64,000 bases of DNA from Bacillus sp. EAC. Its GTDB lineage: Bacteria > Bacillota > Bacilli > Bacillales > Bacillaceae_G. A model generated the notes under the pieces. It saw nothing but the letters and a program-made list of their open reading frames with translations, did not search any database and was not told the DNA's origin. Positions 12,540 to 44,847 of the stretch are shown piece after piece (within the stretch, counting starts at the first letter, position 1; the number at the start of each line of letters is the position of its first letter). Both the position numbers and the translations under genes were made by a program. Where the stretch lies: the NCBI RefSeq assembly GCF_002156875.1, contig NZ_NCSY01000006.1:248001-312000 (forward strand), given 5' to 3'.

Positions 12540-12559
12540 AACTAACACATGCATTAGTT
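12540..12559. repeat. Dispersed 20-bp palindrome, copy 2
   Basis: AACTAACACATGCATTAGTT. To its left, AGGAAGATC and GATCATCCT form the accompanying hairpin (about 12502-12525). No gene ends at this copy. Confidence 0.85.
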
Positions 12560-12650: not shown

Positions 12651-12760
12651 CCATTTCTCCTTGAAAACCTTGTTATTTCAACGTTTTTTCAACTTGGACA
12701 TTTTTTGTCCATAGGGTGTGTAAAGTCCCTGGAGAAATGGTGAAACGAACGTGGTATAGT
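12651..12760 (+). promoter_or_regulatory. Promoter region of the SR1P-like locus with nested inverted repeats
   Basis: CCATTTCTCC (12651-12660) and GGAGAAATGG (12731-12740) are perfect inverted arms 70 bases apart. Between them lies a GGACA/TGTCC hairpin (12696-12710). TGGTATAGT at 12752-12760 fits an extended -10 element. The arms suggest either operator sites or an RNA/DNA structure controlling the promoter. Confidence 0.5.
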
Positions 12761-12780
12761 GGGCTTAGGAGGTGTTTCTA

Positions 12781-12906
12781 ATGCAAATTTTAATCTGTAA
12801 AGAATGCGAAGAAACCATTGAGTACGCGGAGTATAAAAAAATTGTGAAAATCTATTCAACATGCGAAACCTGCAAAAACGAAGCAGCTACTTCACCTGCC
12901 AAATAA
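12781..12906 (+). CDS. SR1P-like GapA-binding peptide
   Basis: 41-residue peptide too short for routine gene calling. It starts at ATG with AGGAGGTG 6 bases upstream. It begins MQILICKECEETIEYAE and continues with KIVKIYSTCETC; this spacing of ICxxC, E-x-I-x-Y and Y-x-TC-x-x-C matches B. subtilis SR1P (which has IVCQDC, AIHYFEDEK and VLYGTC), a peptide that binds GapA and promotes RNase J1 activity. In B. subtilis it is encoded by the dual-function RNA SR1. Here too the ORF is followed by about 100 noncoding bases and a terminator. Paired cysteines suggest metal binding. Identity is by pattern recall. Confidence 0.7.
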   Translation: MQILICKECEETIEYAEYKKIVKIYSTCETCKNEAATSPAK

Positions 12907-12935: not shown

Positions 12936-13043
12936 TTATCAAGACCTTAATATAAAAGACTTAATTCCTAAGGGTTTTAACAAAATATCCATAAATATTA
13001 TGTTGGAAAATGAAAAAAGGATCTTCCATTGAAGATCTTTTTT
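12936..13043 (+). ncRNA. Noncoding 3' module of the SR1P-like RNA
   Basis: After the peptide stop, a conserved stretch (ATCAAGACCTTAAT ... TGTTG) contains an AT hairpin AACAAAATAT/ATATTATGTT and ends in the terminator GGATCTTC/GAAGATC with T6. A sequence similar at roughly three quarters of positions (by eye), with compensating changes in both stems, occurs at 41102-41205 behind an unrelated small ORF. Confidence 0.6.
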
Positions 13044-16438: not shown

Positions 16439-16458
16439 AACTAACTCATGCCTTAGTT
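16439..16458. repeat. Dispersed palindrome, copy 6
   Basis: AACTAACTCATGCCTTAGTT, 15 bases after the stop of the truncated dehydrogenase gene. Confidence 0.8.
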
Positions 16459-16472
16459 CAATAAAGGTTAAC

Positions 16473-16956
16473 TCAATAGCTTGTTAAACATACTTTCCCC
16501 TTAATTATTTTAGAAGACTCAACAACTTCAACAGCCTTTTTTATATCCGATAAGTCAAAGATTGCATCTACTTTCATCAAACGTAATTTTTTATCATCGA
16601 TGAGCCGGATCAAATAATCAAAGGATTTTTGCCATTTAATTGGTGTAACATTATTATTCCAATTTCGCAAATGGAACAAGTTAGCATTAACCATTGCTTT
16701 ATTTACAATATCTGACCAGTTAACTTTGATCCCTGATAATAGACCAATAGTTAAAAAATTTCCTTTAGGGCGCACACAAAAAGCTAACTCGTTTCCAGAA
16801 GTGCCCCCAATCGAATCAATTGCAGCATCCGCCCCAGCTCCATTTGTTAATTCCAATAACTTCATGGTTCTTAGGTGGTTCTATACTTTTATATTCAACA
16901 TTAATTACATTTTTAGGACTACCGAACTCGTAGAATTTAAGACATTTCGCTTCCAA
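16473..16956 (-). pseudogene. Medium-chain alcohol dehydrogenase/quinone oxidoreductase with large internal deletion
   Basis: TTG 16956, with GAGGAG upstream, opens a typical MDR N-terminus (EAKCLKFYEFGSPKNVINVE...PPKNHEV). About 33 codons in, the frame breaks and a different frame continues with the MDR nucleotide-binding C-terminal part (ELTNGAGADAAIDSIGG ... GKVCLTSY). Full-length relatives are about 330 residues, so around 150 central residues, including the catalytic zinc/substrate domain, are missing. A 130-codon ORF from ATG 16865 remains open but would lack the fold core. Clearly broken. Confidence 0.8.
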
Positions 16957-17067
16957 TTTAAAATTCTCCTCGATATAAATCAGTTTGATATAATTAAATC
17001 ATTTTCAACTCTACCGCCTGTTAATTCAATAAATAAATGCCGCATAAAGCGACTTGTGATATTATTC

Positions 17068-17087
17068 AACTAACACATGCGATAGTT
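17068..17087. repeat. Dispersed palindrome, copy 7
   Basis: AACTAACACATGCGATAGTT, upstream of the His-rich peptide gene. Confidence 0.8.
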
Positions 17088-17229
17088 AAATTGTATTTAT
17101 TTTTTTTGCTCATTCTAAATTGTTACCTATTATAAAAATGCACGAAAAATGTTGTATTAAACTTGATGTAGATAATCGTTTCTATATGATATATTTGAAG
17201 TAAGAAAAAATGAAAGGAGTGAATTCTTA

Positions 17230-17439
17230 ATGAGTCATAACGCAAAGGCACAGCATCTTCACAAACAGTTTAATTCACTTCACAAAAAACATAATCAAAG
17301 CGTAATAGATTTTCATAAGCATCACGCTGCTCAAATAGCAAATTGTGAAAATGGAAATAGTTTATTAGCAAAATGGGAACGTTTTGTTTATAACAATGGT
17401 CTTAAGTTCATCAAATCAGTAAAAAATACATTCCACTAA
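17230..17439 (+). CDS. Histidine-rich small protein
   Basis: 69 residues with nine histidines, eight of them in the first 32 residues (HLH, LHKKH, FHKHH). A cysteine (NCENG) and a basic amphipathic C-terminus (YNNGLKFIKSVKNTF) follow. AAAGGAG lies 9 bases before ATG and a terminator follows, so it is a real gene. His clustering suggests metal binding (inference); no known family. Confidence 0.7.
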   Translation: MSHNAKAQHLHKQFNSLHKKHNQSVIDFHKHHAAQIANCENGNSLLAKWERFVYNNGLKFIKSVKNTFH

Positions 17440-17440
17440 A

Positions 17441-17468
17441 GGACTGTTCCGGCAGTCTTATTTTTTTT
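17441..17468 (+). terminator. Terminator of the His-rich protein gene
   Basis: GACTG, TTCCGG, CAGTC followed by TTATTTTTTTT, starting 2 bases after the stop. Confidence 0.75.
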
Positions 17469-17540
17469 ACAATTATTCTATATCCTCTTCTGTTTGAATC
17501 TAGTCACTATTCCACTAAACCACCATATAGTTGAAAGAAG

Positions 17541-17589
17541 CTGAATTATCAGCTCCCAAGTGTTATTGAACTAACGCATGCGTTAGTTG
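17541..17589. repeat. Hairpin plus perfect palindrome (copy 8)
   Basis: AGCTGA/TCAGCT hairpin (17541-17556) and AACTAACGCATGCGTTAGTT at 17570-17589, directly after the stop of the 17598-17783 gene. Confidence 0.85.
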
Positions 17590-17597
17590 CATAACAC

Positions 17598-17783
17598 TCA
17601 GTAATTTTTATACTTATTCTTTACGGGAAATACCTTCAGATATGTGATGAGAATTACTATTAAAAGTACTACTATTAAAAAAATTTCTACTGGTGGATTA
17701 GGATAAATATATTCCGAGATCCAATCAAAAAAATGATATTCAAAATAAACCATTGCTAAGAATGCAAAAATCCTTATTATCAA
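17598..17783 (-). CDS. Small two-helix membrane protein
   Basis: 61 residues with hydrophobic segments near 4-18 and 32-50 and a basic C-terminus. TTG 17783 follows AGAGGT at 8-base spacing. The composite-repeat palindrome sits 8 bases after the stop. No family recognised. Confidence 0.55.
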   Translation of the reverse strand: MIIRIFAFLAMVYFEYHFFDWISEYIYPNPPVEIFLIVVLLIVILITYLKVFPVKNKYKNY

Positions 17784-17834
17784 TGAAATAGACCTCTATT
17801 CTTTAAATCTTTAGATTTTATTATAACAATTCCT

Positions 17835-17915
17835 TATTCCACTATACTGTCATTTTGTGCATAAAAAAAGACCGACCTTGTGTTGATTGTTGTTCAACTA
17901 ACGCATGCGTTAGAT
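17835..17915. repeat. Full-length composite repeat (palindrome copy 9)
   Basis: Left flank TTCCACTATACTGTCATTTT, then TGCATAAAAAAAGAC, degenerate hairpin and AACTAACGCATGCGTTAGAT at 17896-17915. Confidence 0.8.
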
Positions 17916-17941
17916 ACATAAATACGGTTATCGGCAAAAAA

Positions 17942-18001
17942 AAAAAGACTCTTCAATTGAAGAGCTTTTTTATTGCTATATAACTAAGGCATGCGTTAGT
18001 T
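17942..18001 (-). repeat. Terminator hairpin plus palindrome (copy 10)
   Basis: CTCTTCAATTGAAGAG with A-run and T-run (about 17938-17972) and AACTAAGGCATGCGTTAGTT at 17982-18001. On the minus strand it follows the VOC gene at 18102, in tandem with the composite copy at 17835-17915. Confidence 0.8.
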
Positions 18002-22631: not shown

Positions 22632-22892
22632 AAAAAACCTCGCCCTTATCTAAATAGATAAGGACGAGGTTACTATTTTCTCGTGGTACCACCTTAATTC
22701 ACAAAGTACTTACGTACATTTGTCTTTGCAAGTACGGAGCTAAAAATCACTCTTATACTGTGACTTTGATAACAAGTGTCAACTCTTGTCGTAGCCTACT
22801 TGTATGGAATCATACGTTCAGTACGAAGCTCAGAGGCCATTGTTCAATTGAGTATTTATGCTTCTTTTCAGCTACCGAAGCTCTCTGAACTA
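22632..22892 (-). promoter_or_regulatory. T-box riboswitch (methionine) upstream of metG
   Basis: The minus strand carries the T-box core AAGGTGGTACCACG (around 22682-22695), followed by a terminator stem AACCTCGTCCTTATC/GATAAGGGCGAGGTT with T-run (22632-22671). Stem I, with AGTTCAGAGAGC, begins near 22890, and an AUG specifier triplet is at 22838-22840. Uncharged tRNA-Met should bind and allow transcription of metG. Confidence 0.92.
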
Positions 22893-23102
22893 AATATCTT
22901 CAATTTACTTTTCCTCTTCAATGCCTGTATTAAATTATTAAAAAGATTATAAGGTAAATTAACTTAAAAATCAAACTACTTTCCAAAGTATAATATGATT
23001 AATTATATATATATTCCACAACCTAAAATATTCGATTACTAAAAATAAAAATTTATTCTAATAAAAGCCTGACAATATAAACCTTACTATATTATTTATT
23101 TC

Positions 23103-40599: not shown

Positions 40600-40820
40600 T
40601 CATTTTCTAAGTAATTAATTTTGTTTTCTTTGTTTGATCAATTACAGCACTAATAATTCGTGGAGTAACAAAAACCAAATTTCTCAATTTCCCTCTCAAA
40701 ATGTTTTGAATTGTCATTTCGCACACCAAGTGCACCATAGAAAACAGTATGTTGTGTGGCAGAAACAAGAAAAAGAACGACTACTTGGTTGATTGAAAAT
40801 CCGTTTGTCGCAAAACAGTA
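40600..40820. other. Region upstream of the small coiled-coil gene
   Basis: No gene seen. A direct repeat AAACAGTATGT occurs at about 40739 and 40815; the second lies in the promoter of the following gene. Confidence 0.4.
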
Positions 40821-40835
40821 TGTGGTATGCTAATC
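40820..40835 (+). promoter_or_regulatory. Promoter of the small coiled-coil peptide locus
   Basis: GTATGTGGTATGCT resembles the extended -10 of the SR1P-like locus (CGTGGTATAGT). The -35 is weak (TTTGTC). Confidence 0.4.
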
Positions 40836-40863
40836 TAATAGAAAAACCAGTCAAGGAGTGGAA

Positions 40864-41061
40864 ATGATGAAAGCCACATCAACTGTTCAACTTGAACAAT
40901 CCATCGGAAAGTTACGAAAAGTGACTGACGAACTCAACAAGCGAATTAAAGAAACTTCATCCGAAAAAGTAGCAAATGAAACCATCCAACTCAAAGAAGA
41001 ACTGAAAACCATCGCAGAAACGCTTTTACAAATCCAGAAGCGAGAAAACGAAGTAACATAA
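40864..41061 (+). CDS. Small coiled-coil protein
   Basis: 65 residues (64 if the second ATG is used), all helical with heptad-like spacing (LEQSIGKLRKVTDELNKRIKE and LKEELKTIAETLLQIQK). No membrane segment and no cysteine. AGGAG stands 5-8 bases before the twin ATGs. The RNA continues about 110 bases beyond the stop into a structured module shared with the SR1P-like locus. No known family. Confidence 0.65.
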   Translation: MMKATSTVQLEQSIGKLRKVTDELNKRIKETSSEKVANETIQLKEELKTIAETLLQIQKRENEVT

Positions 41062-41101
41062 TGAAACGAAAATGGTACTGACAAAAAATGGAATCAACAT
41101 T

Positions 41102-41205
41102 TTATCATGACCTTAATTAAAAAACTTAATTTCTAATGGCTTTAATAAAGTATTAATGAATATTTTGTTGAGAAAAAAAGGGTCTTCAAAGAAGACCCTT
41201 TTTTT
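41102..41205 (+). ncRNA. Shared 3' RNA module, second copy
   Basis: ATCATGACCTTAATT ... TTGTTG aligns with 12936-13010. An 11-pair hairpin AATAAAGTATT/AATATTTTGTT corresponds to AACAAAATAT/ATATTATGTT in the other copy, and the terminator GGGTCTTC/GAAGACCC corresponds to GGATCTTC/GAAGATC, with compensatory base-pair changes. Confidence 0.6.
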
Positions 41206-41378
41206 CATATTAAAGATTCGCTCCCGATTGCGGAAGATTAAGATAATGATTATAATTGCTGCCTTTAGCTAGTTGAACATACCCCTTAGCTTAAGTACAT
41301 TTCTTCTCTTATTTGTACTTTAAAATTAATTTCAACTGGAAGTAAAAAGCCACCTAAAAAGTTAAAAGTTTTTTTAAG

Positions 41379-43256: not shown

Positions 43257-44555
43257 TTAATGTGCAAAAAATACTAATTGAATTAAGAAGAGAATAGCAA
43301 ATAAATAAACTAGCGGATGTACTTCATTAAATTTACGTTTTACGATTTTCATAATTGGATATGAGATGAAGCCTAATGCGATACCATTCGCAATACTTGA
43401 TGTAAGTGGCATACTCACGATCACTAAAAATGCCGGAAATGCTTCTTCAAAATCATCCCATTTAATTTCGGAAATACTCTTGATCATAAAACAACCAACA
43501 ATAATTAAGCTTGGAGCAGTTATTGCGGCTACATCTGATACTGAACCAATTAATGGGCTAAAAAATGCAGCAATAATAAATAGACAAACAACTGTCAATG
43601 AAGTTAAACCAGTTTTTCCACCTGCACCAACCCCGGCAGAAGATTCAACGGTCGCTGCAGTTGGACTTGTTCCTAACATTGCACCGACAATTGTTCCTAT
43701 TGAGTCAGCTGAAAATGCGCTACCACCTTTTTCTAGTTTTCCATTTTTTAAAAGGCCTGCTTGTTTTACGATTGCAAGTAATGCACCTGTTGTATCAAAT
43801 AACATAACAAGTAAAAATGAAAAAATCACACTATAAAGTCCGTACTCAATAATATCCTTTATCGAATCGATTGGATTATATACTAATACACCTTCTGGTA
43901 AATGTGGCATAGCAACAAAACCATTTGAAAAGTTTAATTGTCCTGTAAAATAAGCAATTAAACCTGTAACGATCATTCCAAGGAATAACGCTCCATTTAT
44001 ATTTAATGCCATAAAAATAATTGTAACTAGAATCCCAATAAGAGTAAGTGCTACTTTCGGTGAAGTGAAATCGCCTATTGTCACTAGATTGGTAGGATGA
44101 TCTGCTACAATGCCTGATAGTCGTAAACCAATAAACGTAATAAATAATCCTATCCCGGCAGCAATTGCGTGTTTTAAATTGGTAGGAATAGCTTGTATTA
44201 ATTTTGTACGAAATGAGGTTAATGATAATAATAAAAATAAAAGTCCAGTAATAAATACAGCAGAAAATCCTACAGAATAAGGAAGGTTATGACCTCCAAT
44301 TACAGAGTAAGTAAAATACGCATTTAATCCCATAGCTGGTGCAATAACGATTGGATAATTTGCTATTAATGACATTGTAAGTGTTCCTATAATTGTTGCT
44401 AGAATAGTAGCTAAGAAAGCTTGATTAAATGGTACCCCTGCATCCTTTAAAATCATTGGATTAACAATGATGATATAGGCTAACGTTAAAAATGTAGTAA
44501 ATCCAGCTAACACTTCAATTTTAACTGAAGTATTTCGCTCTTTAAGTTGAAACAT
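43257..44555 (-). CDS. Guanine/hypoxanthine permease (NCS2, PbuG/PbuO-like)
   Basis: 432 residues with 12-14 hydrophobic segments. LAGFTTFLTLAYIIIVNPMIL, APAMGLNAYFTYSV and LLVMLFDTTGALLAI (substrate segment) and GTSPTAATVESSAGVGAGGKTGL are hallmarks of the AzgA/PbuG branch of NCS2 purine:H+ symporters. A guanine riboswitch in the leader confirms the link to purine supply. GAAAGGAAA precedes ATG. PbuG versus PbuO cannot be told apart here. Confidence 0.92.
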   Translation of the reverse strand: MFQLKERNTSVKIEVLAGFTTFLTLAYIIIVNPMILKDAGVPFNQAFLATILATIIGTLTMSLIANYPIVIAPAMGLNAYFTYSVIGGHNLPYSVGFSAVFITGLLFLLLSLTSFRTKLIQAIPTNLKHAIAAGIGLFITFIGLRLSGIVADHPTNLVTIGDFTSPKVALTLIGILVTIIFMALNINGALFLGMIVTGLIAYFTGQLNFSNGFVAMPHLPEGVLVYNPIDSIKDIIEYGLYSVIFSFLLVMLFDTTGALLAIVKQAGLLKNGKLEKGGSAFSADSIGTIVGAMLGTSPTAATVESSAGVGAGGKTGLTSLTVVCLFIIAAFFSPLIGSVSDVAAITAPSLIIVGCFMIKSISEIKWDDFEEAFPAFLVIVSMPLTSSIANGIALGFISYPIMKIVKRKFNEVHPLVYLFAILFLIQLVFFAH

Positions 44556-44588: not shown

Positions 44589-44735
44589 TAAAAAAACTGC
44601 CAGCTTTTACAGAGAAAAAGCTGACAGTTATACAATGTATAGCTAACAAAAAATTAGTGCTTTTTCTCATAGTCCAGCAATTTACGGGTGCCAGGTAGAA
44701 ACTCTTGAACCATATCTCCAAGTTTATATGAGAAT
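44589..44735 (-). promoter_or_regulatory. Purine (guanine-type) riboswitch with terminator
   Basis: The aptamer, at 44666-44732 on the minus strand, has P1 CTCATAT/CTATGAG, the conserved J2/3 GTTTCTACC, and ACTATG in J3/1 with C at the specificity position (C74 equivalent), meaning guanine/hypoxanthine. The expression platform is the terminator AACTGTCAGCTTTT/AAAAGCTGGCAGTT with T-run at 44589-44629. Guanine should turn the permease off. Confidence 0.93.
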
Positions 44736-44847
44736 ATATTAATATAGTTTCTCTATCATACGACCCTGTCATAATTCTGTCAATAAAAACTAACTGAAAA
44801 AGCGTATAGATTTAAAAACAAACCATACATAGGTATGATCACATAGC

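Follow-up and report, generated by a model that had tools for sequence, protein, structure and literature searches.

Why should two genes with unrelated products end in the same sequence, and does the shared end do anything beyond stopping transcription? The question is raised by two small loci that lie 28 kb apart on the same strand of the window (the whole 64,000-nucleotide stretch of Bacillus sp. EAC DNA that was analysed). One, termed here the coil gene, encodes a 64-aa helical peptide; the other, sr2, encodes a second paralogue of SR1P. The original prediction took both for members of a modular family of dual-function RNAs, in which one regulatory tail is joined to different peptides. The parts of the two loci are:

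40823..40831, + strand: predicted extended -10 promoter element TGGTATGCT of the coil gene, present in all 12 coil loci read
40853..40858, + strand: Shine-Dalgarno sequence of the coil gene, AAGGAG in 11 of 12 coil loci and TAGGAG in that of genome G012
40867..41061, + strand: ORF for the 64-aa helical (coiled-coil-like) peptide, including the stop codon; found in 12 of 13 genus genomes
41062..41088, + strand: the coil gene's own short 3'UTR, ending GACAAAAAA (blastn to the locus of genome G006; comparison by eye)
41089..41179, + strand: putatively acquired tail with its A-tract, absent from the other 11 coil loci read; left boundary drawn by eye
41109..41115, + strand: conserved box GACCTTA (alignment A3, 11 tails: mean pairwise identity 0.90)
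41141..41153, + strand: conserved box TTTAAYAAARTAT, 5' arm of the AT hairpin (A3 columns 53-66, 0.88)
41141..41172, + strand: AT-rich hairpin, coil copy (MFE fold; structure not conserved)
41180..41205, + strand: intrinsic terminator with core GGGTCTTC-AAA-GAAGACCC, then a T run (MFE fold)
12781..12906, + strand: sr2, second SR1P paralogue, 41 aa (PF13790, 32.7 bits; cut-off 26)
12936..13013, + strand: homologous sr2 tail, the likely source type (alignment to the coil tail; strong sr2-tail matches in the genus)
13014..13043, + strand: intrinsic terminator of sr2 (terminator scan)

Two unrelated genes with homologous tails

The proposed pairing of 41102-41205 with 12936-13043 is borne out by local alignment, which recovers the same stretches: 41102-41203 aligns to 12936-13043 with a score of 95, versus 21.0 +/- 3.1 (maximum 43) for 2,000 dinucleotide shuffles. 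The score falls to 78 when the terminators are left out, versus 19.5 +/- 3.1 (maximum 36) for dinucleotide shuffles, and when the window is scanned in 150-base steps on both strands, a score above 31 is found nowhere outside the coil and sr2 loci. Thus, the objection that the alignment might simply reflect AT content is answered. The coil tail also scores above all 500 shuffles when it is aligned to each of 10 other tails.

The ORFs upstream of the tails are, as had been claimed, present and unrelated. The ORF at 12781-12906 contains an SR1P domain, and the one at 40867-41061 matches no family; its 64-aa peptide falls below every Pfam and NCBIfam cut-off and has no PF13790 match at E <= 1. Kinship of this peptide to YgaB was considered and rejected (15.6 bits, below the cut-off of 27, and one among ten weak matches). 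Compared with 11 orthologues, the coil ORF has a pS of 0.29-0.49 and a pN of 0.05-0.09, and the gene appears to be an ordinary small protein-coding gene. The peptide is present in 12 of the 149 genomes searched, all of them from the window's genus, Gottfriedia (12 of its 13 genomes, G004 being the miss), and the six named peptide-encoding loci belong to Gottfriedia or Bacillus isolates.

To judge from the sequence, the coil ORF and the tail most likely form one transcript that is closed by the intrinsic terminator. The promoter scan of the coil locus finds no promoter on the + strand within the tail. A simple promoter scan makes no call at the extended -10 element (40823..40831), and a consensus terminator scan makes none at 41180..41205, where the stem in the MFE fold spans 41172-41206. 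A promoter-like site is present in the sr2 tail (12977-13004, + strand); the number of such sites is not above that in shuffles. The word TGGTAT, which had been proposed as a promoter feature shared by the two loci, does occur, but it is a generic extended -10 sequence and is found in 2 of the 9 aligned sr2 loci. Directly 3' of the coil terminator, at 41210-41241, lies an imperfect palindrome, TTAAAGATTCGCTCCCGATTGCGGAAGATTAA, whose 20-base core occurs once in the window.

A domain search detects SR1P matches in 129 of 149 genomes. Most Gottfriedia genomes carry two kinds, the canonical SR1P and sr2; among the matches listed, the latter has 13 copies, spread over 11 of the 13 genus genomes. 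The canonical gene of this genome (G000:C1) scores 47.7 bits and has a different upstream and 3' region; sr2 scores 31.3 bits in the same search. In another genus of the family, three tandem SR1P domain matches lie in one 170-aa open frame (G018:C104:29097-29549).

Distribution of the tail and its junction with the coil gene

The tail was searched for with R1, a sequence-only model of 11 rows (the tails of the coil gene, of nine sr2 copies, and of a third gene, in G002), which also make up alignment A2. Alignment A3, again of 11 tails, adds the third gene of G001 and leaves out sr2 of G010. R1 was trained on rows that it finds again; E-values for those rows are not independent, whereas the shuffle tests are. 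With 150 of more than 10,000 first-look candidates scored per genome, R1 gives strong matches in 9 of the 13 genus genomes, and in each of the nine one match lies 3' of sr2. The remaining strong matches are behind the coil gene of this genome and, in G002, behind an unrelated gene. No further strong copies are present among the candidates scored in the 13 genomes, and a high-copy mobile repeat was rejected on these counts (2 strong copies here, at most 2 in any of the 13). Judged by its position, the tail is the 3'UTR of sr2. In four other sr2 copies, two in G011 and two in G012, the tail is by eye cut or lost, and these copies are absent from R1, A2, and A3.

Weaker matches add one locus. Of 12 genus matches below 20 bits, 11 were examined: G001:C12 follows the third gene, and the other ten were rejected, having no such gene context and lying mostly inside coding sequence. 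Outside the genus, ten R1 matches of 18-22 bits occur in nine genomes at E <= 0.01 (149 searched); judged without locus context, they are taken as noise level. In 397 genomes of the order, the tail is found at E <= 1e-4 in 9, all from the window's genus (1 of 135 genera), by a search with strict filters in which weak matches can drop out. A plasmid origin of the tail was rejected, with no plasmid match to the coil tail at E <= 0.01 or to sr2 at E <= 0.001. A phage search yields a single weak match, to an unannotated record, that covers 30% of the tail (E 9e-3). Searches of open-licence papers bring up no description of the tail.

Among the 12 coil loci read, only this genome has the tail, and the locus of G006 represents the empty site. 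There, the 3'UTR TAATGAAAC...GACAAAAAA is followed at once by the terminator GGATCTTAG..., whereas in this genome about 90 nt of tail and then a further A-tract lie between the matching start and the terminator GGGTCTTC-AAA-GAAGACCC. The blastn similarity to the G006 locus covers 40821-41088 and ends there, and the similarity to sr2 begins at 41102. The coil orthologues are conserved to about the stop codon and have unrelated 3'UTRs beyond it, the pattern of a species-specific 3'UTR formed by rearrangement.

These observations suggest that the coil gene probably gained, in this lineage, a 3'UTR copied from a different gene. The donor type would be the 3'UTR of the genus-specific sr2; the tail gives a strong match behind that gene in 9 of 13 genus genomes, and the coil tail is nearest to that of sr2 in its own genome (85%, versus 73-84% for nine others compared). 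In a tree of the tails, the coil gene, this genome's sr2, and the third gene are grouped; however, the support is weak (75/80) and leaves donor and direction unproven. Either an insertion of about 90 nt or an exchange that included the terminator would have taken place at the A-tract preceding the coil gene's terminator, probably through recombination between short A-tract/terminator repeats.

The tail could instead be older, an ancestral part of the coil gene that was lost in most species, kept here, and left as a remnant in G011. The coil 3'UTR of G011 does contain, before its terminator, a short stretch that resembles the AT hairpin of the sr2 tails of this genome and of G006, with 2 of 1,000 shuffles as good against each of these two tails. 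However, the match is short, the two are drawn from 55 comparisons, and, with the coil tail as the partner, 977 of 1,000 shuffles do as well; an ancestral tail is highly improbable.

The reading in which a 3'UTR was copied onto the coil gene also draws on the third gene, which encodes an unrelated 165-aa protein that passes no family cut-off. Of 60 genomes, 8 carry this gene, at 9 places in all, and its downstream sequence was examined at 8 of these places (all but G004). The tail lies behind the ORF in two sister species, G002 and, in a more diverged form, G001. The 3'UTRs of G009b, G008, and G005 have no clear similarity to the tail (at best, 13 of 500 shuffles are as high), and by eye the full tail is not seen in G003, G009a, or G006. 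Against the window's sr2 tail, the third-gene tails score 58 (G002) and 46 (G001), and against the coil tail 49 and 32, respectively; in all four comparisons, none of 500 shuffles is as high (maximum 32 for both comparisons with sr2). They are closer to the window's sr2 tail than to the sr2 tails of their own genomes: for the G001 tail, 26 of 500 shuffles are as high against its own genome's sr2 and 116 of 500 against sr2 of G006, and for the G002 tail, 14 of 500 against sr2 of G006. Simple within-genome copying therefore does not explain the third-gene tails, a point that weighs against the copying scenario in its plainest form. With the coil gene and the third gene both carrying the tail of sr2, unrelated genes seem to exchange their ends.

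Conserved boxes, structure, and possible function

Within the tail, conservation is concentrated in two boxes. In A3, mean pairwise identity is 0.90 for GACCTTA and 0.88 for TTTAACAAAATAT; it drops to 0.53 for the spacer between them and to 0.54 and 0.15 for the other spacer and loop segments, and the 3' arm, the predicted partner of the second box, has 0.64. The lower conservation of the 3' arm and the spacers is taken to favour a sequence-read element over a hairpin. Any role beyond ending the transcript would most likely be that of a 3'UTR acting not via the hairpin but via the two boxes, with an RNA-binding protein or a pairing RNA as the possible reader.

Both 3' regions of the window do fold (z -5.9 for coil, z -2.3 for sr2). 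However, RNAalifold detects no consensus pair over 11 tails, and when the sr2-tail structure is mapped on the 11 tails, 71.0% of cells are paired, versus 72.5% in shuffled ones. Slid by 1-3 columns, the mapped structure pairs less well (38-68%), as expected of one derived from a single row. One pair with two-sided change is found in the 11 tails, compared with 3.2 in shuffles, a count that is lowered by the terminator part of the alignment, which is out of register. The compensating changes reported for the AT hairpin and the terminator stem are not confirmed: one terminator pair differs on both sides between the two window sequences, the AT hairpin has no such pair in 11 tails, and neither pairing nor covariation over the whole structure is above shuffles. 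A conserved hairpin was rejected as a family feature, given the lack of an RNAalifold consensus pair and of covariation above shuffles. In an Rfam search, the window holds a T-box and a purine riboswitch alone, neither at the coil tail; the best local match there scores 33.4 bits against a cut-off of 70. The T-box leader (22657-22930) and the riboswitch (44650-44751) are both on the - strand, the latter upstream of a permease gene (43257-44555).

How much of the box conservation reflects function depends on how sr2 itself evolves. Across nine sr2 loci, identity per 20-nt step is 0.88-1.00 in the ORF, 0.85-0.97 in the 120 nt upstream, 0.67-0.78 in the 3' region to the terminator, and 0.25-0.55 in the following 160 nt. 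Compared with this genome, species having sr2 show a pS of 0.17-0.30 for sr2 and 0.52-0.60 for argR. This low synonymous divergence hints at RNA-level constraint on the ORF or at horizontal spread; the conservation of sr2 fits an RNA under constraint as well as a moving gene of younger common origin. Since sr2 diverges so slowly, the conservation of the boxes may come partly from recent common origin, which tempers the case for a copied 3'UTR that acts through them. Among eight 20-kb loci and one 10-kb locus compared, the window shares neighbours with the G011 peptide locus only (three ORFs); the loci of other species share neighbours in pairs (7 for the G012/G011 peptide loci, 17 for the G003/G001 sr2 loci). 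With slow sr2 divergence fitting either cause, and with this comparison of neighbours, conservation of the tail alone is therefore no proof of function.

The 120 nt upstream of sr2 (12661-12780), which have no Rfam match at the gathering score, contain inverted repeats GGAC..GTCC and AGGG..CCCT before an extended -10 and are likely to form an operator or structured leader. The gene is also flanked by a palindrome, AACTAACGCATGCGTTAGTT, which has 13 copies in the window with up to 3 mismatches (shuffle mean 0; for example at 12540, 13055, 14060, and 16439-18001) and, when up to 2 mismatches are allowed, 63 sites genome-wide (control 0). The same palindrome also lies on the 3' side of the third gene's tail in G002.

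A chance duplication of a terminator-bearing 3' segment, with termination as its only function, is another reading. Such a neutral copy is unlikely, though far from negligible: when gaps are left out of account, 9-20% of positions separate this genome's sr2 tail from the other eight in the alignment, which is at or slightly below the synonymous divergence of sr2 (17-30%); 4 of 13 sr2 copies have by eye a cut or lost tail, and 3 of 5 tested third-gene 3'UTRs have no clear similarity. Against a neutral copy stand the uneven conservation (0.88-0.90 in the boxes, 0.15-0.54 in the spacers and loop) and the recurrence of the segment at three unrelated genes with no other strong genomic copies among the candidates scored.

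The modular family of the original prediction goes furthest in the other direction, making the tail a trans-acting base-pairing domain that, placed on different ORFs, would connect several signals to one regulon. What stands is the joining of one 3' module to three ORFs (an SR1P paralogue, a helical peptide, and a 165-aa protein), together with the conservation of the two boxes as sequence and the unusual nucleotide-level conservation of sr2, in the ORF and in the 120 nt before it. What is not supported is a set of stable dual-function RNAs: 11 of the 12 coil loci read are without the tail (G011 has its weak hairpin-like match), covariation does not exceed that of shuffles, and the genus genomes show no additional strong copies among the candidates scored. 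The comparison with B. subtilis, in which ahrC and kinA are pairing partners of SR1 and the peptide SR1P binds GapA, whose binding to RNase J1 it promotes (PMC8501984), is also partial. Like SR1, sr2 encodes a PF13790 peptide and has a noncoding 3' part closed by a terminator. However, the coil RNA encodes no SR1P, and sr2 is the second paralogue, the stronger homologue lying on another contig with another 3' end. In a crude test in one species (40 nt upstream plus 120 nt of the ahrC ORF), the duplex energies of the tails with ahrC are no better than shuffled, 23 of 40 mononucleotide shuffles being at least as good for coil and 25 of 40 for sr2; for the 3' region of the canonical SR1P gene, 7 of 40 are as good. 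RNase J and GAPDH had been named as suspects, but no link to the tail was found, and the B. subtilis interactions described in PMC8501984 belong to the SR1P peptide. A family of dual-function RNAs is, on balance, very doubtful.

A proposed exchange of gene ends

Species-specific bacterial 3'UTRs are already known; to our knowledge, the source of a new one is seldom visible. Orthologous Staphylococcus genes, for example, differ in their 3'UTRs by rearrangement (Menendez-Gil et al. 2020, cited in the review PMC7821165). The coil gene resembles such cases, as the review outlines them, in that conservation is lost just past the stop codon and a species-specific 3'UTR arises by rearrangement; it differs in that its 3'UTR leads back to the end of an unrelated gene and recurs at a third. 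Sibling sRNAs, as treated in PMC4211561, are likewise related copies of an RNA segment in one genome, but coil and sr2 share the 3' segment alone, their ORFs being unrelated.

Here, the donor type (sr2), the recipient (the coil gene), the empty site (G006), and a second recipient (the 165-aa gene) are all visible; thus, 3'UTR exchange and its effect on expression become directly testable by tail swaps. Shared post-transcriptional control through the tail is possible. A bolder form of the idea, in which a mobile 3'UTR module of about 90 nt moves between unrelated genes through recombination at their terminators and places them under a common two-box post-transcriptional control, is speculative and rather unlikely. 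If true, it would be a bacterial counterpart of 3'UTR exchange, with a regulon built from the mRNA end.
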